Shown piece by piece: positions 11,125 through 30,490 of a stretch of DNA of 64,000 nt (position 1 is the first letter of the stretch; each line of letters opens with the position of its first letter). The notes below the pieces were generated by a model that saw only the letters and a program-made list of their open reading frames with translations, was not told the origin of the DNA and did no database searches. The stretch is from positions 2,418,001 through 2,482,000 of the forward strand of contig NZ_JAUTBF010000001.1 in assembly GCF_030818955.1 (NCBI RefSeq), in the 5' to 3' direction. The position numbers were made by a program, and so were the translations under genes. Origin of the DNA: Microbacterium trichothecenolyticum. Lineage in GTDB: Bacteria; Actinomycetota; Actinomycetes; Actinomycetales; Microbacteriaceae.

Positions 11125-11184
11125 ACGCACGCCTCACGAAGGCATGACACCGGTCGTCGCGGGTTCCGCGGCGGCCGGCTCCGC

Positions 11185-11230
11185 ATCCTGGCGGGGGCGG
11201 GACTCAGAGCAGTCCCGCCCCCGCCAGGAT
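11185..11230. terminator. Perfect 20-bp hairpin, partly inside the ROK coding end
   Basis: ATCCTGGCGGGGGCGGGACT (11185-11204) is exactly complementary to 11211-11230 with a 6-base loop. The loop and right arm contain the TGA and last codons of the minus-strand ROK gene, so it serves the convergent DsbA-like and ROK genes. Confidence 0.8.
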
Positions 11231-12589: not shown

Positions 12590-13909
12590 GTGATCTCTCT
12601 CCCCACCCTGGGCCGGCCGGGCGTCGATGACCCCGTGCTGGCGCGCATCCGCTCCCTCGACATCGCGCCCACCGGCTTCGGCGCGGTCGCGACGGTCGAT
12701 GAGCAGTGGAAGACGCGCGCGTCGGCGGCCCCGACGCCGGGGCTGGAGGCGTTGACCGTCCTGGTGAAGGACAGCATCGACGTGGCGGGCCTGCCGACCA
12801 CCGCGGGGTCCCGCGCACTCGCCGAGTCCGTTCCGGACCGGGATGCCGACATCATCGCTAACCTGCGTCGCGCCGGTGCCGGCATCGTCGGCAAGACCAA
12901 CCTGCAGGAGCTCTGCGGATGGGTCACCTTCGCCGCCCCGGGAGGGTACAGCGCGCGGGGAGGATCGCCCCGCAACCCCCGCGGGCACCGCTTCCCGACG
13001 GGCGGATCGAGCTCGGGATCCGCCGCGGCGGCGGCCGCCGGCCTCGTGGACGCCACGATCGGCACCGACACCGGCGGGTCGATCCTCGTTCCGGCGGCGA
13101 ACTGCGGCGTCTACGGTCTGCGTCCCACCGTCGGGCTGCTGTCGCGCCGCGGAGCGCTGCCGATCACCCTCGCGCAGGACACACCGGGTCCGCTCGCCCT
13201 TCGCGTCGCCCACCTCGCGGCCGCGCTCGGCGGGATGCGCCCCGACGATCACCGCCGGTACCTCGACGCCCTGCGCGTCGACCGCCTCGCCGGCGCGCGC
13301 ATCGCCCTCTGCCTGGCCGGCCCCGAGGCGGACGCGCAGACCGCGTGGGCCGACGCGGTCGCGACCCTGATGACCGCGGGGGTCGACCTGCGGCCGGCCA
13401 CCACGGCGATCCCCGTCGACCGGCCCAGCGACCTCCTCGTCCCCGCGTTCGACTTCCGCGACTCAGTCGGTGAGTACTTCGACGCCCTCCCCGCCGGTTC
13501 CCCCGTCCGCGATTTCGACACGCTCTACGCGCACTACCGCGACGCGACTCCCGACGAGCAGCCCTACGGCATCGACAACATCGAGGCCTCCGCGCGGGTG
13601 GACCTGAGCGCCGACCGCGCCTTGCGCAACCGACTCCGCGCCGACGAGTACGACGCGGCACAGCGCGTGCTCGAGCATCTGCGCGAGATCGACAGTGTCG
13701 ACGCCGTGCTGTTCCCCGGTCCGCTCGCGACATTCCTCGCCAGCAAATCCGGCCACCCCGCCGTCGCGCTGCCCGCCGGCACGCTCCCCGGCGGCCGACC
13801 CTTCGCCCTCAGCCTGCTCGCCACCCGCCCCGACGACGAGCAGTACCTGCTCGATCTCGCCGCCTCGTGGGAACACCTGATCGGCCCCACTCCGTCCGCC
13901 TGCCCCTGA
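12590..13909 (+). CDS. Amidase (amidase signature family)
   Basis: A 439-residue amidase-signature enzyme. The Ser-cisSer-Lys triad is visible: Lys60 in LTVLVKDSIDVAGLPTTAG, the cis-Ser in FPTGGSSSGSAAAAAAG (about 141) and the nucleophile Ser164 in GTDTGGSILVPAANCGVYGLRP. Such enzymes hydrolyse amides to acids plus ammonia in the cytoplasm. GTG 12590 has AAAGGA five bases upstream. It heads an operon with a peptide-type ABC importer, a nitrilase and an exporter, which suggests an imported amide- or nitrile-bearing substrate. The family includes biuret and acylurea hydrolases, so the exact substrate is open. Confidence 0.9.
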   Translation: MISLPTLGRPGVDDPVLARIRSLDIAPTGFGAVATVDEQWKTRASAAPTPGLEALTVLVKDSIDVAGLPTTAGSRALAESVPDRDADIIANLRRAGAGIVGKTNLQELCGWVTFAAPGGYSARGGSPRNPRGHRFPTGGSSSGSAAAAAAGLVDATIGTDTGGSILVPAANCGVYGLRPTVGLLSRRGALPITLAQDTPGPLALRVAHLAAALGGMRPDDHRRYLDALRVDRLAGARIALCLAGPEADAQTAWADAVATLMTAGVDLRPATTAIPVDRPSDLLVPAFDFRDSVGEYFDALPAGSPVRDFDTLYAHYRDATPDEQPYGIDNIEASARVDLSADRALRNRLRADEYDAAQRVLEHLREIDSVDAVLFPGPLATFLASKSGHPAVALPAGTLPGGRPFALSLLATRPDDEQYLLDLAASWEHLIGPTPSACP

Positions 13910-13962
13910 TCCACCTCACCTCGACGCGTTCGCGCACCACCCCACCCGAAGGAGCTCCTCCC

Positions 13963-15480
13963 ATGCCACGCCCCCTCCGCGTGACGGCGGCCATCGCCCT
14001 CTCGCTCTCCGTCACCGCCGCCCTCGCGGGCTGCGCCGGCTCGTCATCCGGCTCGTCGACCGACGAGCTCGACATCGCCACGACCGTCAGCGCCGTGAGC
14101 TTCGACCCGTACCTGGCCGACTCCGGTCCCTCGATCTGGATCCTGCAGCCCGCCTACGAGACGCTCATCACCAAGAACGTCGACGGCACCTACACCCCCG
14201 GCCTCGCCTCGGCGTACGAGTACCTCTCCCCCACCAGCTTCCAGCTCACCGTGCGCGACGGCGTGACCTTCTCCGACGGCACCGCCCTCGACGCGGCCGG
14301 TGTGGTGGCCAACCTCGAGCGCGTCAAGACCGTCTCGGGTCCCGCGATCGGCAACGCGGCGGCGATCGACACGATCACCGCGACGGATGCCAAGACCGTC
14401 CTGATCACGCTGTCGGCGCCCTTCCCCGCGATGGAGGATCTGCTGTCGCACAACGTGGGGATGATGGTCAGCCCGGCCGACCTGAGCAGCCCGGATCTCG
14501 CCACCGAGCCGGCGGGCACGGGCCCGTACGTCCTCGACACCGACGCCACCGTGTCCGGCGACCACTGGCGCTTCGTCCGCAACGCGAACTACTGGGGCGA
14601 TGCCTCGGCCTTCTCGTACGACGCCCTGGAGTACAAGTACTTCACCGACCCGTCGTCGACGCTGAACGCGGTGCGCGCCGGCACGATGGACATCGCCCTC
14701 GGCAACACCACGACGGCCGCGGCCGCGAAGTCGGCGGGGCTGCAGATCGTCACGCAGTCCACCGACACGTGGGGACTGGTCCTCGGCGACCGCGCCGGCA
14801 CCAACCAGCCCGCGCTCGGCGACGTCCGCGTGCGGCAGGCCCTGAACTACGCGATCGACCGCGACGCCATCACGAAGGCGGTCGTCGGCGAGTACGGCAG
14901 CCCCGCGCACCAGTACTTCGGAACCCAGACCACCGGCAACGTCCCCGCTCTCGACGACGCCTACCCGTACGACCCCGAGAAGGCGAAGGAGCTGCTGGCC
15001 GACGCCGGGTACGCGAACGGATTCACGTTCGCCGTCACCTCGGTCCCCGGCATCCACGACGCCATGGTCCAGGCCATCCAGGGGTACCTCGCCGAGGTCG
15101 GGGTCACGATGACCATCGACCAGGACGGCGACTTCTTCGCCAACGTCCAGGCCGCGAAGGACCCCGCCTACGCCCTGACGTACACGCAGGGCGACATGTA
15201 CACCACGCTGGCGCCGATCGTCACCCCGACGGGCGTGCTCAACCCCTACAAGTCGTCGGACGAGCGGATCAACAGCCTGTACGCCCAAGCGGCCGCGTCG
15301 AGCGACCCGGCCGAGCAGACGTCGCTGTACCAGCAGATCGCGCAGATCGTCTCGGACGACGCGTGGTTCCTGCCGGTGTACTACGCCGACGTGATCGTCT
15401 ACGCCTCGAAGAACGTCCAGGTGAAGCTGTGGCCCGGCGAGGGCTACCCCTGGATCTACGCCTGGTCGCCGATCTCCTGA
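13963..15480 (+). CDS. ABC importer substrate-binding lipoprotein (peptide/opine/nickel family 5)
   Basis: A 505-residue exported lipoprotein. The signal peptide ends in the lipobox LAGC (Cys24). The body follows SBP family 5: SFDPYLADSGPSIWILQPAYETLI, LTVRDGVTFSDGTALDAAGVVANLERV, GTGPYVL and VRQALNYAIDRDAI. GAAGGAG precedes ATG 13963. It is the first transporter gene after the amidase; a hairpin at 15490-15522 follows, which often raises binding-protein transcript levels over the permease genes. The ligand is not readable. Confidence 0.9.
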   Translation: MPRPLRVTAAIALSLSVTAALAGCAGSSSGSSTDELDIATTVSAVSFDPYLADSGPSIWILQPAYETLITKNVDGTYTPGLASAYEYLSPTSFQLTVRDGVTFSDGTALDAAGVVANLERVKTVSGPAIGNAAAIDTITATDAKTVLITLSAPFPAMEDLLSHNVGMMVSPADLSSPDLATEPAGTGPYVLDTDATVSGDHWRFVRNANYWGDASAFSYDALEYKYFTDPSSTLNAVRAGTMDIALGNTTTAAAAKSAGLQIVTQSTDTWGLVLGDRAGTNQPALGDVRVRQALNYAIDRDAITKAVVGEYGSPAHQYFGTQTTGNVPALDDAYPYDPEKAKELLADAGYANGFTFAVTSVPGIHDAMVQAIQGYLAEVGVTMTIDQDGDFFANVQAAKDPAYALTYTQGDMYTTLAPIVTPTGVLNPYKSSDERINSLYAQAAASSDPAEQTSLYQQIAQIVSDDAWFLPVYYADVIVYASKNVQVKLWPGEGYPWIYAWSPIS

Positions 15481-15489
15481 TGTCCCGCG

Positions 15490-15522
15490 GTCGGGGGCGG
15501 GGCCGCGAGCCCCGCCCCCGAC
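15490..15522 (+). terminator. Intercistronic hairpin between binding protein and permease genes
   Basis: A perfect 13-bp GC stem (15490-15502 with 15510-15522) with a 7-base loop, 10 bases after the stop. Inside an operon it probably acts as an attenuator or mRNA 3' stabiliser. Confidence 0.65.
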
Positions 15523-15559
15523 TCCCACCCTCGCGTTCCTCCTCCGGAAGGAGAATCCC

Positions 15560-16495
15560 GTGCTCTCGGTCATCGGACGCCGTCTCGCGATCGCCGTCCC
15601 CCTCGTGCTCCTCGTCTCACTGCTGACGTTCCTGCTCGTCCCGCTGATCCCCGGCGACCCCGCCGCGACGATCCTGGGCAACACCGCCACCCCCGCACAG
15701 CTCGCATCGCTGCGCGACGCGCTGGGCCTGGACCGCCCGCTTCTCGAGCGCTACCTCGACTGGCTCACCGCGGCGCTGCGAGGCGACTTCGGCACCAGCT
15801 TCTACGACCACTCCCCCGTGCTGGACACCATCGCCGCCCGCATCCCGGTCACGCTGAGCCTCACGCTCGCCGCGACCCTGCTGTCGCTGATCGTCGGCGT
15901 GGGGATGGGGGTGCTCGCCGCGGTCCGTGGCGGCATCGTCGACCGCGCCGTGCAGCTGGTGTCGGTCGTCGGCATGGCGCTGCCCAACTTCTGGCTCGCC
16001 CTCGTCCTCGTGCTCTGCCTGGCGATCTGGGTGCCGATCTTCCTCCCGTCGGGCTACATCCCGTTCGAGGATGACCCCAACGGCTGGTTGCGCAGTCTGA
16101 CGCTGCCGACGATCGCGCTCGGGCTCGCCTCGGCGACCGCGATCGCCCTGCAGACCCGCGCCAGCCTCACCGATCTCGCACGGCGCGACTTCGTCCGCAT
16201 CCTGCGCGCGAAAGGCGTGTCGCGCACGTCGATCATCACGAAGCACCTGCTGCGCAACGCCTCGGGCCCCGTCCTGACGGTGACCGGCCTGCAGTTCGTC
16301 GGCATGCTGGGCGGCGCGGTCGTGATCGAGCAGGTGTTCGCGCTCCCCGGGCTCGGCAGCCTCATCTTCGCCTCCGTGTCGAAACTCGACGTTCCTCTCA
16401 TGCAGGGGGTCGTTGTCGTCATGACCCTGCTCGTGGTCGCCGTGAACCTCCTCACCGACCTCGTCTCCGCCTGGCTCAACCCGAAACTGAGGTGA
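15560..16495 (+). CDS. ABC importer permease, DppB type
   Basis: A 311-residue inner-membrane protein with six expected TM segments. It carries the DppB N-terminal pattern (LIPGDPAATILGNTATPAQLASLRDALGLDRPLLERYLDWL) and the EAA loop (DFVRILRAKGVSRTSIITKHLLRNASGPVLT). GTG 15560 follows GGAAGGAG. It pairs with the permease half of the next gene to form the channel. Confidence 0.9.
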   Translation: MLSVIGRRLAIAVPLVLLVSLLTFLLVPLIPGDPAATILGNTATPAQLASLRDALGLDRPLLERYLDWLTAALRGDFGTSFYDHSPVLDTIAARIPVTLSLTLAATLLSLIVGVGMGVLAAVRGGIVDRAVQLVSVVGMALPNFWLALVLVLCLAIWVPIFLPSGYIPFEDDPNGWLRSLTLPTIALGLASATAIALQTRASLTDLARRDFVRILRAKGVSRTSIITKHLLRNASGPVLTVTGLQFVGMLGGAVVIEQVFALPGLGSLIFASVSKLDVPLMQGVVVVMTLLVVAVNLLTDLVSAWLNPKLR

Positions 16496-16497
16496 CC

Positions 16498-18252
16498 ATG
16501 TCCACCGCCCTCTCCCCCGCGCCCGCGGTCCCCACCGTCCGGACCCGCCGCGCCCGCCCGCGAATCTCGGTTCCGCTGGTCCTGGCACTCCTGTGGATCG
16601 CGATCGTCGTGATCGGCGCGATCGCCGCGCCCCTGCTCACCCCCTACGACCCGGTCAAGCAGGACCTGGCGAACACGCTCTCCCTCCCGACCGCCGCGCA
16701 TCCGCTCGGAACCGACGGCCTGGGGCGCGACATCCTCAGCCGCCTGCTCCACGGCGGCCAGGTGAGCCTGCTCGGCGCCCTGCTCGCTCTCGTGGTCGCC
16801 TTCGTCATCGGCGTGCCCGCGGGGCTCACGGCCGGCTACTTCCGCGGGGGCCGCTGGGATGCCGTCTCGGCACGCATCATCGACCTGCTGCAGAGCGTGC
16901 CGGTCATCGTCATCCTGCTCACGATCCTCGCCGTGACCGGGAAGAACGTGTACACGGCCATGGCGGTGTTCGGCCTGATCGTCTCGCCGGTGTTCTTCCG
17001 ACTCGCCCGCGACGGCGCCGCCGCCACGAGCGCGGAGCTGTACGTCGACGCCGCGAAGGTCTACGGGCTCCGCTCGCCCCGGATCATCGCGCGCCACGTG
17101 CTGCCGAACGTTCGCAACCCCCTGATCGTCCAGGCCACGATCGTGCTGAGCCTCGCGCTGCTCACGCAGGCGGGCCTCAGCTACCTCGGGCTCGCGAGCC
17201 CTCCCCCGGCACCGAGCTGGGGCGGGTCCGTGGCCGACGCGAACACCTACATCAACCAGCAGCCGTGGATGCTCGTCCCCTCCGGTCTCGTCCTGGTGCT
17301 GACCATCCTCGCGTTCACCGTCGTCGGCGACGCGGTGCGGGATGCCATTCCCGGCAACGCCGGCACCGGGCGGGGCGTGATGGTCGCACGGACCCCTCTC
17401 CCCGCCGACGCGACCCCGGTGGACCAGCGGGGCGCGATGCTGTCCGTCCTCGGGCTCTCCGCGGCCGCCGGCGCGACGCCCCTGCTCACCGACGTGTCGT
17501 TCGAGCTGCGGCGCGGCGAGATCCTCGCCCTGGTCGGCGAGTCCGGCTCCGGCAAGACGATGACCGCCATGTCGATCATCGGTCTGCTGCCGACCGGCGT
17601 CGAGGCGACCGCGGGGCGCATCGTGCTCGACGGCGACGACCTGCTCACTCTCCCCGAGAGCGAGCTGCGCCACGTCCGCGGCCGTCGCATCGCGTACATC
17701 GGCCAGGAGCCGATGGTGAGCCTGGACCCGGCGTTCTCCGTCGCGCACCAGATCGACGAGTCGCTGCGACTGCACCGCACGCTCGACCGCCGCGCCCGCC
17801 GGGACGAGGTGCGCCGGCTCCTCGCGCAGGTGAAGATCGCCGACGTCGAGCGCGTCGCACGCTCGTTCCCGCACGAGCTCTCGGGTGGGATGGCACAGCG
17901 CGTCTGCATCGCGATGGCCCTGGCCGCCGAGCCCGAGCTGCTGATCGCCGACGAGCCGACCACGGCGCTGGACGTCACCGTCCAGGCCGACATCCTCGAG
18001 CTGCTGCGCGAGCTGTGCCGGGAACGGACGATGGCGATGATCATCGTCACGCACGACTTCGGGGTCGTCGCCGACGTCGCGGACCGCGCGATCGTGATGC
18101 TGCACGGGCGGATCATCGAGAACGCCGCCGTCGAGGAGCTCTTCGATCACCCGAGCCACGAATACACCGCAGGTCTGCTCGCGGCGAACCCCGCGATGCG
18201 CGGCGACGAACACGCCGTCTGGTATGCCGATGAGGAGGCGAGCACCCGATGA
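16498..18252 (+). CDS. Fused ABC permease (DppC type) and ATPase (DppD type)
   Basis: A single 584-residue chain. Residues 1 to about 290 are a DppC permease (LLTPYDPVKQDL, PLGTDGLGRDILSRLLHGG, EAA loop ELYVDAAKVYGLRSPRIIARHVLPNVRNPL). From about 310 it is a nucleotide-binding domain with Walker A GESGSGKT, signature LSGGMAQRV, Walker B LLIADEPTTALD and H-loop THDF. The join is clean, without stop or frameshift, and overlaps the next ATPase gene by ATGA. ATG 16498 is preferred over GTG 16492 because GAGGTG lies just upstream. Permease-ATPase fusions of this kind occur in other actinobacteria. Confidence 0.9.
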   Translation: MSTALSPAPAVPTVRTRRARPRISVPLVLALLWIAIVVIGAIAAPLLTPYDPVKQDLANTLSLPTAAHPLGTDGLGRDILSRLLHGGQVSLLGALLALVVAFVIGVPAGLTAGYFRGGRWDAVSARIIDLLQSVPVIVILLTILAVTGKNVYTAMAVFGLIVSPVFFRLARDGAAATSAELYVDAAKVYGLRSPRIIARHVLPNVRNPLIVQATIVLSLALLTQAGLSYLGLASPPPAPSWGGSVADANTYINQQPWMLVPSGLVLVLTILAFTVVGDAVRDAIPGNAGTGRGVMVARTPLPADATPVDQRGAMLSVLGLSAAAGATPLLTDVSFELRRGEILALVGESGSGKTMTAMSIIGLLPTGVEATAGRIVLDGDDLLTLPESELRHVRGRRIAYIGQEPMVSLDPAFSVAHQIDESLRLHRTLDRRARRDEVRRLLAQVKIADVERVARSFPHELSGGMAQRVCIAMALAAEPELLIADEPTTALDVTVQADILELLRELCRERTMAMIIVTHDFGVVADVADRAIVMLHGRIIENAAVEELFDHPSHEYTAGLLAANPAMRGDEHAVWYADEEASTR

Positions 18253-19109
18253 TGACCACCACGACACCCGCGCCCGCGACCGACGGGACGCTGCGCGTAA
18301 GCGACCTGCGCGTCACCTACCGCAAGCGCGGTCTGTTCACCCCGGCGTACACCGCGATCGACGGCGTCTCGTTCGAGCTGAAGCCCGGACGCACGCTCGG
18401 CCTCGTCGGCGAATCCGGCTCCGGCAAGAGCACCATCGGACGCGCGATCCTGGGCCTCACCCGCGTGGCCGGGGGACACATCTCCTACGACGGGCGCGAC
18501 ATCACGCACCTGCCGCTCGCCCGTCGACGCGAGGTGAGCACGCAGATCCAGGTCGTCTTCCAGGACCCCTACAGCTCGCTGAACCCCTCCCTGACGGTGG
18601 GCGACATCCTCACCGAACCGCTGCTGGCGCTTCGCCGGATGACGCGGGCCGAGGCGGACGGCATCGTCCGCGGCCTCCTCGACCGCGTCTCCCTGCCCGC
18701 AAACGCCGTCGACCGCTACCCGCGGGAGTTCTCGGGCGGACAGCGCCAACGCATCGCGATCGCCCGCGCTCTCGCCGTGTCGCCGCGACTCGTCGTCTGC
18801 GATGAGCCCACGAGCGCGCTGGATCTCACGACGCAGGCGCAGGTGCTCGACCTCATGGCGGAGCTGCAGCGCGACCTCGGCGTCAGCTATCTGTTCATCT
18901 CGCACGACCTCGCCGTCGTGCGCCAGGTCTCGCACGAGGTCGCCGTGCTCAACAAGGGCCGGATCGTGGAGTTCGGCCCCACCCGCACCGTGACCGAGAC
19001 GCCGGCCGACGACTACACGCGTCTGCTGCTCGCCGCCGCTCCCGTCCCCGACCCTCGCCTGCAGCAGGAGAGGCGCCTCGCCCGCCGCGCCCTGCTGGCC
19101 GGCGCCTGA
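18249..19109 (+). CDS. ABC importer ATPase, DppF type
   Basis: A 286-residue ATPase with Walker A GESGSGKST, signature FSGGQRQRIAIARAL, Walker B LVVCDEPTSALD and H-loop ISHDL. The C-terminal extension is short compared with usual OppF proteins. It is the second nucleotide-binding subunit beside the fused ATPase at 16498-18252; the two genes overlap by four bases. Confidence 0.9.
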   Translation: MMTTTTPAPATDGTLRVSDLRVTYRKRGLFTPAYTAIDGVSFELKPGRTLGLVGESGSGKSTIGRAILGLTRVAGGHISYDGRDITHLPLARRREVSTQIQVVFQDPYSSLNPSLTVGDILTEPLLALRRMTRAEADGIVRGLLDRVSLPANAVDRYPREFSGGQRQRIAIARALAVSPRLVVCDEPTSALDLTTQAQVLDLMAELQRDLGVSYLFISHDLAVVRQVSHEVAVLNKGRIVEFGPTRTVTETPADDYTRLLLAAAPVPDPRLQQERRLARRALLAGA

Positions 19110-19129: not shown

Positions 19130-20020
19130 ATGGCCCAGATCACTCTCGCCGCCGTGCAGTCCGAGCCGGTGTGGTTCGACCTCGACGGCACGACCGACAA
19201 GACCGTCGCCCTGATCGCCGAGGCGGCCGCCCACGGCGCGCGTGTCATCGCGTTCCCCGAGACCTGGCTGCCGGGCTACCCCAGCTTCATGTGGTTCGGC
19301 GACGAGGACTACCGCGCGCCGTTCCGACAGCGCTACCTCGAGAACTCGCTCGTGGCGGGCAGCGCGCAGCATCGGCGGATCGAGGCGGCGGCGCGAGAGG
19401 GGCGCATCACCGTCGTCCTCGGTCTGAGCGAACGCGTGGGCGACGAGCTCTACATGGCGCAATACGTCATCAGCGACGACGGCATCACCACCATGAAGCG
19501 GCGGAAGCTGAAGCCGTCCGCGGTCGAGTGGGACATCTTCGCCTCCGGATCCGGTGCCGATCTCGAGGTCGTCGACAGCTCCATCGGCCGCATCGGTGCC
19601 CTCAACTGCTCCGAGAACCGCCGTCCGCTCCTCCGACACGCCCTGTTGTCGCAGAACGAGCAACTCCATGTGGCCTCGTGGCCCCACTTCGGGCTCTATC
19701 CCGGGTTCGTCCCGATGAGCGCCGAGGCGAGCATGGCCGCGAGCTCGCAGTACGCCGCCGAGGGCGGTGTCGTGACCCTCGCCCCGACCATCGTGGCCGG
19801 CGCCGCCTACCTCGAGCTGCTCGAGCTCCCGGAGGGCGAGCGCGATCGCATTCTCAGCGGCGGCGGTTCCACGCGCATCTTCGGACCTTTCGGTGAGAGC
19901 ATCGCCGAGCCGCTCGCCCCCGAGGTCGACGGCATCCTGTACGCCACCGTGGACGAGTCCCTTCTCCGTCGCGACCAGGAGTACGACGCGGACCCGACCT
20001 CCATCGTCAAACCGTGGTGA
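19130..20020 (+). CDS. Nitrilase-superfamily hydrolase (nitrilase branch)
   Basis: A 296-residue member with the catalytic Glu44 (AFPETWLPGYPSFMWFG), Lys126 (MKRRKLKPSAVEW) and Cys160 (GRIGALNCSENRRPLLRHALL). The ETWLPGYP and HVASWP motifs place it in the true nitrilase branch, which turns nitriles into acids plus ammonia. The residue after the nucleophile is Ser instead of the usual Trp (CSE rather than CWE), and the C-terminus is shorter than in typical nitrilases. GAAGGAG precedes ATG 19130. It stands 20 bases after the ABC ATPase, so its substrate probably enters by that importer. Confidence 0.85.
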   Translation: MAQITLAAVQSEPVWFDLDGTTDKTVALIAEAAAHGARVIAFPETWLPGYPSFMWFGDEDYRAPFRQRYLENSLVAGSAQHRRIEAAAREGRITVVLGLSERVGDELYMAQYVISDDGITTMKRRKLKPSAVEWDIFASGSGADLEVVDSSIGRIGALNCSENRRPLLRHALLSQNEQLHVASWPHFGLYPGFVPMSAEASMAASSQYAAEGGVVTLAPTIVAGAAYLELLELPEGERDRILSGGGSTRIFGPFGESIAEPLAPEVDGILYATVDESLLRRDQEYDADPTSIVKPW

Positions 20021-21481: not shown

Positions 21482-22912
21482 TCAGCCGACGAACCGCTCC
21501 GCCAGAGCCGACCGCCGCACCTTCCCGGCGTCGTTGCGCAGCGGCGTGGTCGACACGTGCAGCGCGACGGGCGCGCGACGACCCAGGTGCGCCCGGGCGT
21601 GGGCCATCACCGACGCGGATGCCGCTGGGTCGGTGAGCCGGACGGCGGCGTGCACCACCTGGCCCAGCTCGTCGTCGGCGACGCCGAAGGCGACGGCTTC
21701 CGCCACGGCGGGATGCTCTTCGAGCGCCGCCTCGATGACGGCGGGGGCGATCTTGTCACCCCCGCGGTTGATCATGTCGTCGGACCGGTCGTGCAGGAAG
21801 AGGTAGCCGTCGGCATCCACGTGTCCGACGTCGCCGAGGGTGTCCCAACCCTCGGCGTCGCGGCGCGAGCTCGCGCCCACGTAGGCGTAGGCGGGGGCGG
21901 CGCCGCGCCGCATCCACACCAGTCCGCCCTCGCCCGTGGGCAGGTCGCGCCCGCTGTCGTCGCGGATACGGATCTCGGTGCCCCCGATCGGCCGCCCGAC
22001 GCTGCCCGGGCGCTCGAGCCAGTCGGTGCCCGTGATGCGGGTGAGACCGTTCGACTCGCTGCCGGCGTACACCTCGTCGACCCGCTCGGCGCCGATCCAG
22101 TCGAGGAAAGCGCGCTTCAGTGTTGGCGCGCACGGCGCCCCCATGTGCAGCACGCTCTCGATGCTCGCGACGCGCTCGGGCACCCGCGCTTCGGCGGGCA
22201 GACGCAGCAGCCGCGCCATCATCGCGGGAACCAGCAGACCCCACGTCGCCCGGTGCGTCTCGACGGCCGTGACCCACGCGGCGGGATCGAAGCGGTCCAG
22301 GATGACGAGACGGTGACCCGTCAGCAGGCCGCGGAACGCGTAGGTGAACACGGCGGAGTGCCACAGGGGTCCGGCGACGATCTGCGTCGCCCGGTGGGGC
22401 AGGAACTCCGCGACCGGGCGCGAGGGATCCAGGGTCGCGGGCGCGGCGGCGCGCACGATCTTGGGCCGTCCCGTCGAGCCCGAGGTCGCCGGGGCCTTCC
22501 AGCACGATGCCGCCGTATCCGGCAGCTCGCCGCCGCGCGGGGCCACGCGCGCTCCGGGCAGCCACGCGATCCCCGGCGACACGGGCCGCGACCCCACGGC
22601 GGCCGCGGGCACGGCCAGCGCCTCCAGGGCGCCGCGCTCCCCCGCGGTCAGCTCGGTCGACAGGGGCTGCGGCGTCGCGCCCGCCCGCCAGATCCCGAAG
22701 CAGGCGATGACGAAGTCACGCCCGTTGCGCAGCGACACCGCGACGAGGTCGTCGCGCCGCACCCCACGGCGGAGGAGTTCGTGCGCGAGCGCCGAGGCCG
22801 CGGCATCCAGCTCCCCCGCCGTCATCGCCCCGGCACTGTCCACGACGAGGGGCTCGTCGGGATCGGCCCGCGCGCGCTCAGCGAGGATCGCCGAGAATGT
22901 CTGCTCGGTCAT
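21482..22912 (-). CDS. AMP-forming acyl/aryl-CoA ligase-like enzyme
   Basis: A 476-residue ANL-superfamily adenylate-forming enzyme, complete through its core motifs: KAPATSGSTGRPKIVRA (phosphate loop), VYAGSESNGLTRITG, WDTLGDVGHVDADGYLFLHDRSDDMINRGGDKIAP and the C-terminal catalytic Lys in LRNDAGKVRR. It would activate a carboxylate with ATP and pass it to CoA or another nucleophile. ATG 22912 overlaps the glycosyltransferase stop (ATGA). It is the last gene of the Nit1C-type operon, which suggests that the nitrilase-side product, an acid, may be its substrate (inference). Confidence 0.85.
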   Translation of the reverse strand: MTEQTFSAILAERARADPDEPLVVDSAGAMTAGELDAAASALAHELLRRGVRRDDLVAVSLRNGRDFVIACFGIWRAGATPQPLSTELTAGERGALEALAVPAAAVGSRPVSPGIAWLPGARVAPRGGELPDTAASCWKAPATSGSTGRPKIVRAAAPATLDPSRPVAEFLPHRATQIVAGPLWHSAVFTYAFRGLLTGHRLVILDRFDPAAWVTAVETHRATWGLLVPAMMARLLRLPAEARVPERVASIESVLHMGAPCAPTLKRAFLDWIGAERVDEVYAGSESNGLTRITGTDWLERPGSVGRPIGGTEIRIRDDSGRDLPTGEGGLVWMRRGAAPAYAYVGASSRRDAEGWDTLGDVGHVDADGYLFLHDRSDDMINRGGDKIAPAVIEAALEEHPAVAEAVAFGVADDELGQVVHAAVRLTDPAASASVMAHARAHLGRRAPVALHVSTTPLRNDAGKVRRSALAERFVG

Positions 22913-24006
22913 CGCGCGCTCGCCAGCGGCACGCGGGCGTAGAACTCCTCGTGCGCTCGCGCGGCGCGATCCCACGTGTGGGCGCGGGCGAGCTCGACCC
23001 CGGCGGCCGCGTCGATCGACGCCCGTCCGCGCAGCACCGCGTCGAGCCGGGCGGCGATCTCGGATGGCGTCGACGCGTAAAGCACCGCGTCGCCGAACAC
23101 CTCGCGGATCACCGGCAGGTCTCGCGCGACCACCGGCGTGGCCGCGGCGAGCGCCTCCATCGCGGCGAGACCGAAGCCCTCCTTGGTCGAGACGAACGCG
23201 AGCGCCCGCGCCTCGGCGACCAGGGCCGGCAGCGCGGCGTCGTCGACCGGACCGAGGATGATCGGACGGATGCCGAGCTCGACGGCTCGCGCCTCGAACC
23301 GCGCGCGGTAGTCGCGGTAGTCGAACAGCGTCTCGCCGCCGCCGAAGACCAGGCGCAGGTCGGGGTGCGTTTCGCGCGTGAGGGCGTAGGCCTCGAGCAG
23401 GTCGATCGAGCCCTTCCGCGGCTCGATGCCCCCGAGGGCCAGCACGTACGCGCCGAGCTGACTCCTCCACTGAGCCCGGTCGTCATCGGCCGCGGCCGCG
23501 AACCGCTCGGCATCCACCCCGTTCGCGATCACCTCGGGCCGCACGCCGTAATCGCGCTCGACCTCGCGCGCGACGGCCCGCGAGACGCACAGTCGCGCGA
23601 CCGGTTCGACGACCGCACGGTCGTGGCAGGCCACGAGCTGCGGCGTCGTGAAGGTGTCGAGGTGGTGGATCGTGCGGACGACCGGGATGCCGCGACGAAG
23701 CGCCGCGTTCGCCGAGATGCAGTCCTGCGCGTGGACGATCTCGGCATCCGGGTCCAGCGCCGCGGCCATCAGCTCGATCGAGCGCTCGATGCGTTCCCCC
23801 ACGCCCTCGCCGTCGCGCGGGGGGAAGGGCACGACGCGCACGCGGACGCGCGGGTCGACCGGACGGAAGAACGCGGTGTCGTCGCCGCGCCCCAGCGTCC
23901 ACACCTCTACGTCGTGCCCGCGCGCGGCCAGCGCCTCGGCGAGCGCGAGGGTGTGCACGACCCCGCCGCGGGGTTTGGTGGAGTAGGTCAGCTGCGCGAT
24001 GCGCAT
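22909..24006 (-). CDS. Glycosyltransferase, MSMEG_0565-like (GT4)
   Basis: A 365-residue GT-B enzyme: RIAQLTYSTKPRGGVVHTLALAEALAARGHDVEVWTLGR at the N-terminus, LGGIEPRKGSIDLLEAY, and the nucleotide-sugar motif STKEGFGLAAMEALAAATPVVARDLPVIREVFGDA. The start matches the group known from Nit1C-type clusters of mycobacteria (MSMEG_0565 family), which fits its neighbours. GGAAAGGAC precedes ATG 24006. It probably attaches a sugar to the cluster's small-molecule product; donor and acceptor are unknown. Confidence 0.85.
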   Translation of the reverse strand: MRIAQLTYSTKPRGGVVHTLALAEALAARGHDVEVWTLGRGDDTAFFRPVDPRVRVRVVPFPPRDGEGVGERIERSIELMAAALDPDAEIVHAQDCISANAALRRGIPVVRTIHHLDTFTTPQLVACHDRAVVEPVARLCVSRAVAREVERDYGVRPEVIANGVDAERFAAAADDDRAQWRSQLGAYVLALGGIEPRKGSIDLLEAYALTRETHPDLRLVFGGGETLFDYRDYRARFEARAVELGIRPIILGPVDDAALPALVAEARALAFVSTKEGFGLAAMEALAAATPVVARDLPVIREVFGDAVLYASTPSEIAARLDAVLRGRASIDAAAGVELARAHTWDRAARAHEEFYARVPLASAR

Positions 24007-24036: not shown

Positions 24037-24894
24037 CTACGCCGGCGCGCTGAGCCGGTAGGCGTGTTCGGCGCGCTGCGCGAGGTGGTTGAGCGAGCGT
24101 CGCGCGCGGGCCACGTCGGCGGAGACGTCGGCCTCCGCGACGGCGAGCCCGCCCTTCGCCCAGGTCTTGGCGACGATCTCGCCCGCGGGGTCGACGACCT
24201 TCGCCTGCCCGAGGAAGCGCAGGCCGCCCAGCACGCCGGTCTGGTTCGACGACACGAGGTAGACCTGGTTCTCGGCCGCGCGCGCGCAGTCGTACAGGTC
24301 GAACAGGTGGGCCTGCCGGTCGTTGCGGATGCGGTCGGACCGGTCGGTCACGCTCGCCGGCCACGCGCTCAGGCACGCGATGACCTGGGCACCGTCGAGC
24401 GCGACCGACCGCGCCGCCTCGGGGAAGGTCTTGTCGAAGTCGATCAGCATCCCGATGCGACCGACCGGGGTGTCGAAGGCGCGGAAGTCGTCGCCGGCGG
24501 CGTAGACCTCCGATTCGCCCAGCGGCAGGTGCACCTTGCGGTGCACCCCCAGCACGCCGTCGCCGTTCACACAGACGGCGGTGTTGTACCGCCGCTCCTC
24601 GCCGCCGTCGACGGCGCGCTCGGCGATTCCGAAGCACACCGTCATGTCACCCGCCAGCGCGACGATCGCGGCCACCTCGGGCCCGTCGATCTCGACGGAG
24701 TGCGGGATGCCGTCACCCTCCTCCACCGGATGGTGCAGGTCGAGCAGGTAGCCGCCGATCGTGGCATCCGGGAGCACGAGAAGGTCGACGCCGCGCCCGC
24801 GCGCGTCCTCGACGATGCCGGGGAGCTTCGCGAGCGTGCGGTCCACGTCGCGGCCGAAGTGGGCCGCCACCGCAGCCATCGTCACGGATGCCAT
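24037..24894 (-). CDS. Nitrilase-superfamily homologue lacking catalytic Cys and Glu (predicted pseudoenzyme)
   Basis: A 285-residue protein that aligns along its whole length with the nitrilase at 26464-27366 (IGGYL, YNTAVCVNGDGVLGVHRKVHLPLGE, RAFDTPVGRIGM, DKTFPEAAR, GLRFLGQAKVVDP). At the three catalytic places it has Asp43 instead of Glu (LVLPDATIGGYL), Lys120 conserved, and Asp152 instead of Cys (RIGMLIDFDKTFPEAAR). Without the Cys thiol the usual thioester chemistry is impossible, so it is either a binding or regulatory partner or uses other chemistry. The frame is intact and codon use normal, so it is not a decaying gene. It lies between the flavoprotein and glycosyltransferase genes. 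Confidence 0.85.
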   Translation of the reverse strand: MASVTMAAVAAHFGRDVDRTLAKLPGIVEDARGRGVDLLVLPDATIGGYLLDLHHPVEEGDGIPHSVEIDGPEVAAIVALAGDMTVCFGIAERAVDGGEERRYNTAVCVNGDGVLGVHRKVHLPLGESEVYAAGDDFRAFDTPVGRIGMLIDFDKTFPEAARSVALDGAQVIACLSAWPASVTDRSDRIRNDRQAHLFDLYDCARAAENQVYLVSSNQTGVLGGLRFLGQAKVVDPAGEIVAKTWAKGGLAVAEADVSADVARARRSLNHLAQRAEHAYRLSAPA

Positions 24895-24918: not shown

Positions 24919-26175
24919 TCAGCGCACGGCGAGGACGCCGCGCGACGCCGCCACGATGCCGGCGGCGACGTGCTCGGCATCCCGTGCGATCGCGTGGAAA
25001 CGGCCCGAGCCCCACGTGTGCAGCCACGGAAGCCCCACGAAGGAGAATCCGGGGACCGCCGTCGCGCCGCGGTCGTGCGCCGGGTGCCCGGCCGCATCGA
25101 GCACGTCGAGGTCGCCGAGCCACGACCAGTCCGCGCGGAAGCCGATGGCCCAGACGACGGCGTCGATCTCATCGAGGTCGAGCCGGGTGGGGCCTCCGCC
25201 AGGCGTCCACACCGGCCGGTAGCGCTCTTCGACGGGAGCGTCGATGCCCTCGCGGGCGATGTAGTTGTCGATGTCGTTCTTGATCGACTCGGCGACCGCG
25301 TCGGCCCGGTCGAGGTTGGCCGTGAGGCTGTCGTCGAACGCGAGGGTTCCGTCGGCGACGCCGATCGCCCGTCCGTGCAGGCCCATCCCCTGCGCCGCGA
25401 AGAGGCGGAGGTCGATGTCGCGTCCGCCGTCGCGCCCGGTGACGTAGTGGTTGGTCGCCGCGCGTTTGGCCGCGGCCTGCTCTCCCACCGGCACGTCGTA
25501 GACGCCCATGTCGGCGAGCCACGTCATGCAGTCCCGCCCGCGGTAGAACCGCGCCACGCGCGGCGCGCGCCCCACGGCGAGGTGCACCTGGCGCCCCTCG
25601 AGGTGGAGGTCCTCGGCGATCTGCGTGCCGGACTGCCCCGTCCCCACCACGAGCACCGAACCCGGGAGCTGTCCCGCGTTGCGGTAGTGGTGCGAGTGCA
25701 TCTGGACGATGCGCTCGGGCAGGTCGTCGGCCCACGACGGCGTGATGGGGCGGTGATAGCCCCCGGTCGCCGACGTGACGGCATCCGCGGTGATCTCGCC
25801 CGCGCTGGTCTGCACGACGAACACGCCGTCGTCGCGACGGTCGACCCGCCGCACCTCCACACCCTCGGCGATCGGCGCGTCGAACGTGTCGGCGTAGCCG
25901 CGCACCCAGGCGTAGACCTCGTCGCGGGTCATGAACCCGTCGGGGTCGGGGCCGTCGTAGGGGTAACCGGGAAGCCGGCAGTGCCAGTTCGGGGTCACGA
26001 GGGTGAAGTTGTCCCACCGCCCGTCGCGCCACTCGTGCGCCGCGGACTCCCGCTCGATCACGACGTGCCGCACGCCCGCCTGCGCGAGGTGCCAGCTGAC
26101 CGAGAGGCCCGCCTGGCCGCCGCCGACGATGACCGCGGAGTAGTGGTCGCCCGGCTGCAGGTCGACGGCGATCAT
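24919..26175 (-). CDS. Flavin-dependent oxidoreductase, MSMEG_0569-like (Nit1C cluster)
   Basis: A 418-residue FMO/trxB-like flavoprotein: SAVIVGGGQAGLSVSWHLAQAGVRHVVIERE for FAD, GSVLVVGTGQSGTQIAEDL for NAD(P)H, and AVVWAIGFRADWSWLG with FSFVGLPWLHTWGSGRF near the end. The string WDNFTLVTPNWHCRLPGYPYDGPDPDGFMTRDE is typical of the flavoprotein that travels with Nit1C nitrilases. ATG 26175 overlaps the preceding stop (ATGA). It would oxidise the cluster's substrate, possibly at nitrogen. Confidence 0.9.
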   Translation of the reverse strand: MIAVDLQPGDHYSAVIVGGGQAGLSVSWHLAQAGVRHVVIERESAAHEWRDGRWDNFTLVTPNWHCRLPGYPYDGPDPDGFMTRDEVYAWVRGYADTFDAPIAEGVEVRRVDRRDDGVFVVQTSAGEITADAVTSATGGYHRPITPSWADDLPERIVQMHSHHYRNAGQLPGSVLVVGTGQSGTQIAEDLHLEGRQVHLAVGRAPRVARFYRGRDCMTWLADMGVYDVPVGEQAAAKRAATNHYVTGRDGGRDIDLRLFAAQGMGLHGRAIGVADGTLAFDDSLTANLDRADAVAESIKNDIDNYIAREGIDAPVEERYRPVWTPGGGPTRLDLDEIDAVVWAIGFRADWSWLGDLDVLDAAGHPAHDRGATAVPGFSFVGLPWLHTWGSGRFHAIARDAEHVAAGIVAASRGVLAVR

Positions 26176-26471
26176 GACGCACCCACCGGGAGGGGAGGCT
26201 CCATGCGCAGCACGGTGACCTCGCCGCCGTCGTAGGCAGCCGCCGACCGCACGATCTCGTCACGGGATGCCATGGCCGAGGTGCACGCGAAGCCGTAGGC
26301 GGCCCGCACGCGTTCGCCCGCGGCATCCAGGGCCTCGCTCGATCGCGCGACGAAATCGGCGACGTCGTAGCTGCTCCCGGTGGTGAGGTAGTCGTGCATC
26401 ACGAGGCTCGGCGAGTAGTGCGAGGACTCGACACCGTCGGGCCAGCGCACCGCGAAGCGCATCTCAGGCAC
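26172..26471 (-). CDS. MSMEG_0570-like small nitrogen-starvation protein
   Basis: A 99-residue protein: MPEMRFAVRWPDGVESSHYSPSLVMHDYL, SYDVADFVARSSEALDAAGERVRAAYGFACTSA. This matches the small protein found beside Nit1C nitrilases and labelled a nitrogen-starvation response protein. GTG 26471 has AAGGAG upstream and overlaps the nitrilase 3' end by eight bases. Biochemical role unknown; it could be a scaffold or carrier-like partner. Confidence 0.85.
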   Translation of the reverse strand: MPEMRFAVRWPDGVESSHYSPSLVMHDYLTTGSSYDVADFVARSSEALDAAGERVRAAYGFACTSAMASRDEIVRSAAAYDGGEVTVLRMEPPLPVGAS

Positions 26472-27374: not shown

Positions 27375-27902
27375 TCAGAGGTTGTAGGTGGAGTTGATGA
27401 TCGCGCCCTTGCGCGCGTAGTAGATGAGCGCGTCCTGCACGTCGAGCGGGTGCGCGGGGATGACACCCTCGATGAGGTCCTCTTCGCGGATGCCGTGCAG
27501 GGCCAGGCCGAAGCGGCAGCAGTAGACCGTGCCGCCCTCCTTGATGAACGTCTCGAGCGAGTTGTTCATGTTCAGCTCGCCGGGGAAGCCCGCGTCGCCC
27601 GTGGTGGGGAAGCCGCGGTTGGCGGTGGCGGCCAGCGTTCCCGGACCGTAGAGGTAGATGGCCGACTCGAAGCCCTTGCGCAGGGCCCGGGTCGCCTGGA
27701 GGATCGCGACGAAGCTCACCGAGGACTCGTGCGGGATGCCGTGGATGAGCGTGAAGTACGACTCGCCGTTCTCGGCCTGGAAGTCGGGGAAGAGCTTGGT
27801 GGAGCCGTAGATGTTGCTGCCCTTGGGGAGCGAGGGGTGCGGAACCTCGCCGAGGGACTTGGCGATGTTCTCGGCGATCTGAGCGTCGATGTCGGTGGTC
27901 AT
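27375..27902 (-). CDS. MSMEG_0572/Sll0783-like nitrogen-starvation protein
   Basis: A 175-residue protein: HPSLPKGSNIYGSTKLFPDFQAENGESYFTLIHGIPHESSVSFVAILQATRAL and a C-terminal half resembling DsrE-like folds (AIIYYARKGAIINSTYNL; my inference). It is a hallmark member of the Nit1C cluster. AAGGA lies 7 bases before ATG 27902. The 102-bp gap upstream carries a GlnR-box-like site, so this gene may start a second transcript of the cluster. Confidence 0.9.
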   Translation of the reverse strand: MTTDIDAQIAENIAKSLGEVPHPSLPKGSNIYGSTKLFPDFQAENGESYFTLIHGIPHESSVSFVAILQATRALRKGFESAIYLYGPGTLAATANRGFPTTGDAGFPGELNMNNSLETFIKEGGTVYCCRFGLALHGIREEDLIEGVIPAHPLDVQDALIYYARKGAIINSTYNL

Positions 27903-28004: not shown

Positions 28005-29396
28005 TTACGCCTGGCCGAGGCCCGTGGCATCCGTGTCGAGCGCACGGGTCTCGACGCCGTCGGGCCACCGCAGCACGACGCCGGGCTCGGCGCTGAGTTC
28101 GCCGATCGTCGCCGAGTGCGCGAGCGGCGAGGGGATCTCGGGCGCATCGGCAGTGAGCATGCCGTACCCCGGGAAGCAGGTGAGCCAGTCGCCGAAGGCG
28201 ACGTCGGGCGGTGCGGGGATGTCGGCCACGTCGATGCGCGCGCCGGTGCCCGACGCCTCGGCGAGCATCGCCGTCGTCCCGACGATGCCGGCCATGCTGA
28301 CGTCTTTCGCCGCGGCCGGTCGGTGCGCGGCGAGGAGCCCCGCCAGGTGCCGCAGCTCCTCGCCCGTCCGGGTGGAGGTCGAGTCCCACTGGCGTCCCTC
28401 GAAGCCGCGGCGCCAGCGGCCGTGCAGGTCGACGGTGAGTCCCAGCCGGTGCCCGGCTCGCCCGCCCCCGCCGGGGATCGGCGCGGTCGTGCGCCCCAGC
28501 GCGGTCACAGCCAGCGACGACGCCCCCCGCAGCTGCGTGTGCCCGCCGAGGATCGGCACATCCCACGCGACCGCGGCGCTGCGCAGCCCCGAGACGATGC
28601 GGCGCACCGCCGACGGGGTGGCGGCCGACACGGCATCCATCAGTCCCACCGCCCGCGCACCCATCGCCGACAGGTCGTTGACGTTGACCAGCACCCCGCA
28701 CCACCCCGCCCACTCGGGGTCTTTGTCGATGAGGGCGGGAAGGATCGCGTCGGTGGCGACCACGACGTCGGTGCCCGACACGAGCGCCCCGTCGTCTCCG
28801 ACCCAGCCGTCGCCGCCGAGGGAATCGGGATGGTCGTCGCGGATGCCGGCGAGCACGTCGCCGAGGGGCAGCTTCATCGCCCCGACGAGGTCGGCGATGC
28901 GGTCGATGGGCCAGCGCATCCGCACGTGGGGGGTACCGCCGATCGAGGTCTCGCCCCAACGCACCCACCCGAGGTGACGGAAGAGGGGCTCGTTGCGTTC
29001 CTGCACGGTGGCGTCGAAACGCAGCACGCCCCGGCTCACCGCCTCACGACACGCTTCGCGAACGAGAGCGGAACCGATCCCGCCCGCGTGGCGAGCGCCG
29101 CGGCGCACGACGAGACGCCCACCCGTCCACCAGCCGATGTCGCGCGCGGTGGCGGGGGCGAGCCGCACCCCGCCGAGGACGTCGCCCGCGGCGGTGGCCG
29201 CGACCAGCACCACGGTGCGCGGGTCGTCGTCGATGTCGTCGTGATCCGACCCGGCGAACAGTCCCTGCTCGTCGACGAACACGTCGCGCCGGATCGCGCG
29301 GTAGGCGGCGAGGTCGGCGGCATCGGCCACCCGGATCACCCACGCGGGCGCCTCCTGCGCACGGGGTGCGCCGGTCAGCACCGGCACGTCGAACAT
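28005..29396 (-). CDS. GNAT N-acetyltransferase fused to AIR synthase-like domain (Sll0786-Sll0787 type)
   Basis: A 463-residue two-domain protein. Residues about 20-150 are a GNAT acyltransferase (RAIRRDVFVDEQGLF, LVVRRGARHAGGIGSALVREACREAVSRGV, acetyl-CoA loop RxxGxG-like). From about 160 on is a PurM/AIR-synthase-related ATP-binding domain (GDDGALVSGTDVVVATDAILP, LVNVNDLSAMGARAVGLMDAVSA, KDVSMAGIVGTTAMLAEASG). In cyanobacteria these are two genes. It begins at the TGATG overlap with the radical SAM gene. Together they would acylate and phosphorylate the pathway intermediate (inference). Confidence 0.9.
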   Translation of the reverse strand: MFDVPVLTGAPRAQEAPAWVIRVADAADLAAYRAIRRDVFVDEQGLFAGSDHDDIDDDPRTVVLVAATAAGDVLGGVRLAPATARDIGWWTGGRLVVRRGARHAGGIGSALVREACREAVSRGVLRFDATVQERNEPLFRHLGWVRWGETSIGGTPHVRMRWPIDRIADLVGAMKLPLGDVLAGIRDDHPDSLGGDGWVGDDGALVSGTDVVVATDAILPALIDKDPEWAGWCGVLVNVNDLSAMGARAVGLMDAVSAATPSAVRRIVSGLRSAAVAWDVPILGGHTQLRGASSLAVTALGRTTAPIPGGGGRAGHRLGLTVDLHGRWRRGFEGRQWDSTSTRTGEELRHLAGLLAAHRPAAAKDVSMAGIVGTTAMLAEASGTGARIDVADIPAPPDVAFGDWLTCFPGYGMLTADAPEIPSPLAHSATIGELSAEPGVVLRWPDGVETRALDTDATGLGQA

Positions 29397-30490
29397 CACG
29401 CGCCCGCCGTCTTGAGGATGCTGCACGCACCGCACGCGGCACACCCGGCCTTCTGATCCTCGCCGCGCATGCCGGCCGCGTGCAGCAGCTGCGCGACCCG
29501 TGAGGTGATGTCGTCGACGACCGCGCGGTGCGGGGCCGGCACCTTGTCGACGTCGGTGGCGAGCGTGCCCTTGAGCGGGCGGAACGGCACGACGAAGGGG
29601 TAGACGCCCATCTCGATCAGCTCGCGCGCCCCCTCGACCGCCTCGTCGGGGTCTTCGCCCATGCCGACGATGAGGTAGGTCGACACCTGGTTCCACCCGA
29701 ACACCCGCACGGCCTCGCGCCACGCGGCGCGGTACTCGTCCATGCTCACGCGGGACTTCCCCGGCATCCATCGGCGGCGCACGTCGTCGTCCATCGACTC
29801 GACATGGATGCCGATGGATCGGGCACCCGCGTCGTACAGGTCGGTGATCGCCTGCAGGTCGGCGGGCGGCTCGCACTGCACCTGGATCTCGAGCTGCGGG
29901 ACGGCGGCCTTGACCGCCCGCACGCAGCGCGCGAGGTGCTTGGCGCCGCGGTCCCATCCGTTCGAGGTGCCGGTGGTCATGACCATGTGCGTCACGCCGT
30001 CGAGCCGTACGGCCGCCTCGGCGACCTCGGCGAGCATCGCGGGGGTCTTCACCGCGATCGTCGTGCCCGCATCGAGCGAGGCCTCGATGGCGCAGAAGCG
30101 GCAGCGCTCGCTCTCGTCGTAGCGGACGCAGGTCTGCACGACGGTGGTGGCGAGCACGTTCTTGCCGTGGAGCTTGGCGATCTTGTCGTAGGCCACGCCC
30201 TCGTCGGTCTGCAGGTCGTAGAACTTCGGCCGGACGACCGGGGCGACGTCGAAGCCGAGATCGGCACCGTCGCGGGTCAGGCGCCCAGACGCGGTGATGA
30301 CGTACGGACTGTTCGGATTGAGGGGGATGGCCGCGCCCTCGCCGTCGACGACGAAGTGGCCGTCGTCGCTCGGGCCGGCTCCGCCGGTGCGGCGGACGGG
30401 GGCGTCGCTGCGGACGCCGAGCAGGGCTAGGCTGACACGCGTCGAGACGCGATCACGATCGGCGGGTGCGAGCGCTGAAGCGTTGTCCAT
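29396..30490 (-). CDS. Radical SAM enzyme, MSMEG_0568-like (Nit1C cluster)
   Basis: A 364-residue radical SAM protein. The SAM-cluster cysteines are Cys121, Cys130 and Cys133 in TCVRYDESERCRFCAIE, a C-x8-C-x2-C spacing wider than the classical C-x3-C-x2-C. A C-terminal AGCAACGAC gives three more Cys (CxxCxxC), a possible auxiliary cluster. SNGWDRGAKHLARCV and YLIVGMGEDPDEAVEG match the biotin-synthase-like fold. It is the first gene of the Nit1C operon, starting from ATG 30490, and probably performs its defining chemistry. The upstream 165 bp are shared with a divergent LLM gene. Confidence 0.9.
   Translation of the reverse strand: MDNASALAPADRDRVSTRVSLALLGVRSDAPVRRTGGAGPSDDGHFVVDGEGAAIPLNPNSPYVITASGRLTRDGADLGFDVAPVVRPKFYDLQTDEGVAYDKIAKLHGKNVLATTVVQTCVRYDESERCRFCAIEASLDAGTTIAVKTPAMLAEVAEAAVRLDGVTHMVMTTGTSNGWDRGAKHLARCVRAVKAAVPQLEIQVQCEPPADLQAITDLYDAGARSIGIHVESMDDDVRRRWMPGKSRVSMDEYRAAWREAVRVFGWNQVSTYLIVGMGEDPDEAVEGARELIEMGVYPFVVPFRPLKGTLATDVDKVPAPHRAVVDDITSRVAQLLHAAGMRGEDQKAGCAACGACSILKTAGA

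Follow-up and report, generated by a model that had tools for sequence, protein, structure and literature searches.

Results

A nitrilase-fold gene that lacks the catalytic nucleophile

This work concerns a gene for a nitrilase-fold protein, hereafter A, that lies beside a paralogue, hereafter B, in a 64,000-nucleotide stretch of Microbacterium trichothecenolyticum DNA (contig NZ_JAUTBF010000001.1, positions 2,418,001 to 2,482,000; hereafter the window). Sequence comparisons suggest that A lost its nucleophile long ago and may serve as a non-hydrolytic partner of B. When A is aligned with B and other CN hydrolases, it shows D43, K120, E127 and D152 where the others have Glu, Lys, Glu and Cys, so that only the lysine of the Glu-Lys-Cys triad is kept, together with the second active-site glutamate. 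The first-pass annotation had noticed D43-K120-D152 in place of E-K-C in an intact homologue that shares an operon with an active-looking paralogue, and all of these observations were borne out: the alignment gives E-K-C for B, which lies on the same strand of the same operon, and A has a full-length open reading frame (ORF) that opens with ATG, scores 124.1 bits against PF00795 (gathering cut-off 23.2), which places it in the nitrilase superfamily, and is predicted to form a complete nitrilase fold with a predicted local distance difference test (pLDDT) score of 95. The two window proteins are 45.8% identical, and A scored below the cut-off of all 10 NCBIfam families that it matched, as did B for all 11 of its own. 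For TIGR03381, the AguB equivalog, A reached 85.4 and B 105.4 bits against 410.25, and for TIGR04048, the Nit6803 nitrilase of Nit1C, they reached 39.8 and 41.2 bits against 502.6.

Table 1 Genes of the run around A in the window, and the active-site codons of A
Feature	Position in window	Strand	Family match or remark
MSMEG_0568-family radical SAM protein	29396..30490	(-)	TIGR04043 above cut-off
GNAT and AIR-synthase-like fusion	28005..29393	(-)	TIGR04045, TIGR04050 above cut-offs; start codon tentative
MSMEG_0572/Sll0783-family protein	27375..27902	(-)	TIGR04044 above cut-off
B, E-K-C paralogue of A, 300 aa	26464..27366	(-)	CN hydrolase, below cut-offs of matched NCBIfam families
MSMEG_0570-family small protein	26172..26471	(-)	TIGR04042 above cut-off
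MSMEG_0569-family flavin-dependent oxidoreductase	24919..26175	(-)	TIGR04046 above cut-off
A, nitrilase-fold protein without nucleophile (D43-K120-E127-D152), 285 aa	24037..24894	(-)	
D43 codon of A, GAT	24768-24766	(-)	Glu position of triad, labile in A clade
K120 codon of A, AAG	24537-24535	(-)	invariant Lys
D152 codon of A, GAC	24441-24439	(-)	nucleophile position (Cys in relatives), near-invariant Asp in A clade
MSMEG_0565-family glycosyltransferase	22909..24006	(-)	TIGR04047 above cut-off
Adenylate-forming (FadD-like) ligase, last gene of run	21482..22915	(-)	start near 22915 inferred

The loss of the nucleophile is fixed among relatives of A

In a first set of loci, assigned by similarity, 67 of 68 A orthologues were D-K-D and one was D-K-S, while all 51 B orthologues and all 21 other CN hydrolases were E-K-C. 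When the full locus set was sorted by similarity alone, 158 of the 161 ORFs closer to A carried D152 (S in two, C in one) and all 138 ORFs closer to B carried Cys; some genomes occur more than once in these counts, and the two S152 ORFs come from one genome that is present twice. The single Cys152 ORF is L094, a single-copy E-K-C gene slightly closer to A than to B. A further set comprised 212 distinct rows, of which 210 were locus sequences and two were A and B of the window; one row has a gap at position 43. As residue 152 itself served to divide this set into A and B, its counts of the 98/99 type are partly circular. K120 is present in all 99 rows that carry D or S at 152 and E127 in 98 of them, and position 43 is occupied by D in 91, by G in 7 and by Q in 1. 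The independent evidence on residue 152 comes from the similarity-sorted locus sets and two trees.

The same pattern was found in database proteins. Among the best 120 of 4598 relatives retrieved with A of the window, 119 were D-K-E-D and 1 was N-K-E-D, and a Mycolicibacterium A as query gave D-K-E-D in all of the best 120 of 4359. The A gene of locus L091 retrieved 116 relatives, of which 57 were E-K-E-C and 56 had D152 (with D, H, S or M at position 43 and E or D at 127); the remaining three are the odd rows among all 356, namely E-K-E-S (partial), Q-K-E-G and A-A-H-C. Every one of the 296 database proteins with D152 keeps K120; at position 43, 281 of them have D, 12 have H and one each has N, S or M, and at position 127 there are 30 with D. 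We also observed a subgroup, comprising L091:4348-5193 and proteins P0123-P0151, in which E127 is Asp as well, giving D-K-D-D, and another subgroup with His at position 43. Since position 43 is labile and K120 and D152 are kept, it is these two kept residues together that mark the family. The earlier idea that both Asp replacements define the family, with D-K-D fixed in an orthologue alignment, thus holds for the nucleophile position and fails for D43, which is common but variable. Orthologues retaining E-K-C at the same position, which would have pointed to a strain-level loss, did not appear; the nearest case is L094, which falls outside the A clade in the more careful of the two trees. With D152 in nearly all A-type ORFs of the locus sets, chance, sequencing error and strain-level loss are rejected as explanations.

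Origin and selective constraint of A

We built a quick tree of 94 rows, which has long outgroup branches, and a careful tree of 70 rows; the catalytic columns were removed from both, and short or over-similar rows were dropped before the trees and the distance coupling described below. On both trees, all D152 and S152 rows form one group without any Cys row (42 rows in the quick and 27 in the careful tree), and column 152 needs 2 changes, consistent with one C-to-D and one D-to-S replacement; on the careful tree, 8 changes are required at position 43. In the careful tree, the sister group of the A clade is B together with L094, the E-K-C gene of a lineage that has no A, with an ultrafast bootstrap (UFBoot) of 95 and an SH-like approximate likelihood ratio (SH-aLRT) of 92. 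Judged from these trees, A is an old duplicate with a single C-to-D change; several families of the class carry it, as does G568 (locus L091), a genome from outside the class.

The median ratio of nonsynonymous to synonymous substitutions (dN/dS) was 0.175 for A (417 pairs) and 0.193 for B (732 pairs), values that come from a simple Nei-Gojobori calculation on non-independent pairs of high-GC genes and are valid as a comparison of A with B; the mean distances over 76 loci were 0.322 and 0.323, respectively. By these measures the constraint on A is like that on B, and selection has maintained A ever since the Cys was lost. A loss kept for so long under selection suggests a partner subunit or a new function of the pocket rather than decay. 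A and B have the sequence marks of a pseudoenzyme paralogue pair, in that a catalytic residue is lost, the loss is fixed and the gene is under selection; from its residues, A would be expected to show no turnover.

A and B occur together and their distances co-vary

The distribution of A was followed in samples of 394 genomes of the class, 199 of the family and 198 of the genus; outside Actinomycetota, A was sought in a plasmid collection only. Fifty genomes of the class sample had a match at E <= 1e-40, of which 32 carried both types, 1 carried A alone and 17 carried only E-K-C relatives, so that B accompanies A in all but one of the 33 genomes that carry A. In the family sample 14 genomes carry A and in the genus sample 13, and each of them has a second, B-like match as well; with 13 of 198 genomes, A is patchy within its own genus. 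Wherever a locus holds both genes they lie on the same strand with B upstream of A (106 of 106 loci, some of them from the same genome), and the gap between them is below 200 bp in 17 loci, which represent 9 genomes. The plasmid collection gave 5 records that matched A by similarity, four from Rhodococcus at about 62% and one from Sinorhizobium at 35%. Outside the cluster, a genome without A holds a second, divergent E-K-C relative (L236, about 7540-8400, minus strand).

Distance coupling was computed for six cluster genes (15 pairs) in 93 loci reduced to 71 non-redundant ones. The A-B pair had the highest partial correlation of all 15, 0.68 (5-95% range 0.60-0.78 over 500 subsamples), and it reached 0.82 without four Mycolicibacterium-like loci. 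The earlier proposal that A could be a subunit of the active-looking paralogue is consistent with this coupling and with the co-occurrence in 32 of 33 genomes.

A and B differ by fixed residues at seven sites, namely 43, 152, 156, 194, 197, 207 and 228. Sites 43, 152 and 156 are at or beside catalytic positions, and 194, 197 and 207 lie in helix 193-209, which may be helix alpha-6 of the A-interface, a putative dimer interface.

The operon is of the Nit1C/gpr type

A belongs to a tight run of nine genes on one strand, from the radical SAM protein to the FadD-like ligase (Table 1). The seven matched NCBIfam families that take their names from the MSMEG_0565-0572 / Sll0783-0787 cluster all score above their cut-offs, and this sequence evidence assigns the operon to the Nit1C/gpr type linked to nitrogen starvation, like MSMEG_0565-0572 (PMC1199592, PMC6039565). 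It differs from the known cluster in its nitrilases: that cluster has a TIGR04048 nitrilase, a family whose cut-off A and B miss by far, and the part of Podar 2005 (PMC1199592) that treats Nit1C describes one nitrilase, not a pair. In the Mycolicibacterium-type locus L208, the order is MSMEG_0572-family gene, B, MSMEG_0570-family gene, flavoprotein, radical SAM protein, GNAT/AIR fusion, A and glycosyltransferase. As this order fits the eight genes from MSMEG_0572 to MSMEG_0565 of PMC6039565, synteny places A at the position of MSMEG_0566, as had been suspected.

In the sections of PMC6039565 on this operon, the eight Mycobacterium smegmatis genes MSMEG_0565-0572 are induced by GlnR under nitrogen starvation; their deletion makes nitrogen-starved cells sensitive to peroxide, expression from a plasmid restores resistance, and the authors could not assign the phenotype to single genes. 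PMC6039565 also proposes that MSMEG_0571 is a selenoprotein made by UGA read-through. In the window, B, the MSMEG_0570-family gene and the flavoprotein gene are separate, closely spaced ORFs, each with its own stop and start, so that read-through would be unnecessary in this genome.

A third nitrilase-like gene was observed at 19130-20020 on the plus strand, adjoining ABC transporter genes (13867-19109, judged by eye). It is closest to TIGR04048, with 161.7 bits against the cut-off of 502.6; the automatic alignment gives E-R-E-C, and by eye a Lys stands beside that Arg and the Glu and Cys motifs look intact.

Discussion

Hydrolysis in the nitrilase superfamily runs through a cysteine thioester. 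The catalytic tetrad is given as C-E-E-K in the relevant part of PMC6637149. Because A has no Cys and its Glu position is variable, thioester hydrolysis by A would be excluded; part of the A clade lacks an acidic residue at position 43 altogether. A resembles the CN hydrolases of the AguB and archaeal branches (PF00795, TIGR03381, NF040852; structures 1j31/6ypa, 3ivz and 5h8i) in its fold, its Lys, its second Glu and the surrounding motifs, and differs from them in lacking the Cys nucleophile and the catalytic Glu. The best of several explanations, to which we give somewhat less than an even chance, is that A is an old, selectively kept, non-hydrolytic paralogue and partner of B, probably a subunit of a hetero-oligomer, that tunes B. 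A would assemble with B through the conserved interfaces of the superfamily, the kept K120-D152-E127 site would stabilise the subunit or bind a substrate-like ligand, and the activity, specificity or stability of B would be tuned as a result. D152 facing K120 could itself form a salt bridge with it, anchor a ligand or take part in new catalysis.

Related enzymes offer precedents for such an arrangement. A and B resemble the grass nitrilases NIT4A and NIT4B in being two paralogous, possibly interdependent subunits of one fold, although a complex has been demonstrated there and is what we infer for A and B. Both grass isoforms reportedly keep the active Cys. The activity of grass NIT4A/B requires heterocomplexes, according to the passages of PMC6214922 and PMC3537687 on these enzymes. 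In the experiments described in the part of PMC6214922 on Capsella, an excess of C182A nitrilase subunits made the specificity of the active enzyme more like that of its inactive partner in two of the mixtures examined in vitro. The inactivated subunits CrNIT1 C182A and CrNIT2 F80H C182A of that account are like A in that a subunit without nucleophile stands beside an active one, and unlike A in that they are laboratory-made and carry Ala, whereas A is natural and old and carries Asp.

Several observations weigh against this reading. The support of the A clade itself is moderate in the careful tree (UFBoot 82, SH-aLRT 96), and the putative physical complex is read from co-occurrence and distance coupling. 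The A-B coupling falls to 0.46 in a sparse set of 30 loci, where that of A with the glycosyltransferase is 0.39. In four Mycolicibacterium-like loci (L090, L092, L208 and L209), B is 76-80% identical to that of Microbacterium locus L055 and A only 63-65%, so that B has apparently been exchanged horizontally without A. Identity between A and B is 0.498 within a locus and 0.493 between loci, a difference reached by 5 of 2000 permutations, so that part of the coupling may stem from weak gene conversion or shared composition. Gene conversion was considered and set aside as the source of the coupling, the within-locus excess being 0.5 percentage points, which is small and not zero. L094, which is E-K-C and comes without A, shares Q194 and A207 with A; W194 and L207 thus look derived in B, R197L is the sole change on the A side, and a simple story of interface remodelling in A is weakened. 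In PMC6214922, another mixture, CrNIT1 with an excess of CrNIT2 C182A, showed no effect.

The distribution also contains cases that speak against an obligate complex. Genome G613 (98% complete; A at L180:9842-10705) lacks B altogether, and the 20 kb around A contain nothing recognised as a gene of the cluster. The 17 of 50 class-sample genomes with only E-K-C relatives include G870, whose gene is remote and without cluster genes, and G709 and G834, whose contigs are cut near the gene. In G780 and G621, the cluster has the flavoprotein and B and no A, which in G780 is simply absent between the flavoprotein and glycosyltransferase genes, and in one family (L182-L189, L191, L192 and L194-L197) an E-K-C gene occurs with neither A nor TIGR04046 in the stretch fetched, which is short for some of these loci. 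In one of them, L183, the E-K-C gene and the glycosyltransferase gene are separated by an ORF at 10518-12116 for a protein of 532 aa, which matches FAD_binding_3 weakly (30.8 bits). The cluster cannot depend strictly on A, given that some clusters have none. A would therefore be accessory to the pathway, and its being accessory and separable speaks more for a tuning than for an obligate subunit.

Other explanations of A deserve attention. It is unlikely, though a serious contender, that A is a stand-alone carrier or sensor that binds a pathway amide, nitrile or carboxylate but leaves it intact and needs no complex with B, since B accompanies A in nearly all genomes, their distances are the most tightly coupled of all pairs, and no ligand is known. 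Slightly less probable, in our view, is that A is an enzyme of new chemistry in which D152, with K120 and E127, acts on another substrate as carboxylate nucleophile, acid-base pair or metal site. D152 and K120 are kept in A about as strictly as Cys and Lys are in B, and the constraint on A equals that on B, which would suit such an enzyme; however, D, G, H, Q, N, S and M all occur at position 43, position 127 is Asp in the 30 database proteins mentioned above, one genome has S152, and D152 may have a plain structural reason, namely to balance the charge of a buried Lys that has lost its Cys. The particular form of this idea in which A is a natural Cys-free enzyme of the nitrilase fold, using an Asp152-Lys120 site (with Glu/Asp127) for carboxylate-nucleophile, acid-base or metal chemistry in place of a thioester on an intermediate of the nitrogen-starvation pathway, we hold to be rather improbable. 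Asp also resembles an oxidised Cys (sulfinate), and it can be speculated that a peroxide-proof site would fit an operon linked to peroxide resistance.

We think it quite improbable that A works chiefly with the flavin oxidoreductase (TIGR04046) and not with B. The flavoprotein gene is indeed in the locus of 30 of 33 A-bearing and of only 2 of 17 A-lacking genomes, and the A-flavoprotein partial correlation is 0.36, but G568 and G608 have A with no TIGR04046 match in the genome at E <= 1e-20, G780, G621 and G319 carry TIGR04046 without A, and the tree of the radical SAM protein offers just 3 independent pairs, too few for a test. The chance that A is a decaying duplicate or a strain-level loss is very nearly negligible, because the loss of two catalytic residues and the absence of A from some clusters are outweighed by the fixation of the loss across many families, a dN/dS of about 0.18, a rate no faster than that of B and a complete predicted fold.

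Searches of the openly licensed papers in PMC for nitrilase pseudoenzymes or inactive paralogues listed no title or abstract opening that names an A-type family, and earlier notice elsewhere is possible. MSMEG_0566 is termed an "aliphatic amidase" or "putative aliphatic amidase" in the parts of PMC6039565 and of the transcriptome papers PMC4222082 and PMC4617892 that mention it, and the authors of PMC6039565 suggest there that this putative aliphatic amidase could supply nitrogen assimilation. If MSMEG_0566 is of the A type, as synteny suggests, the amidase annotation is probably wrong, and the protein would not hydrolyse amides by the known mechanism. Judged from sequence comparison, the observation on A is real and wider than first stated, and if its partnership with B is true, the pair would be a natural counterpart of the inactive subunit that has been made by mutation beside an active nitrilase. 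A and B would then offer a clean two-gene system for learning how dead subunits tune oligomeric enzymes.
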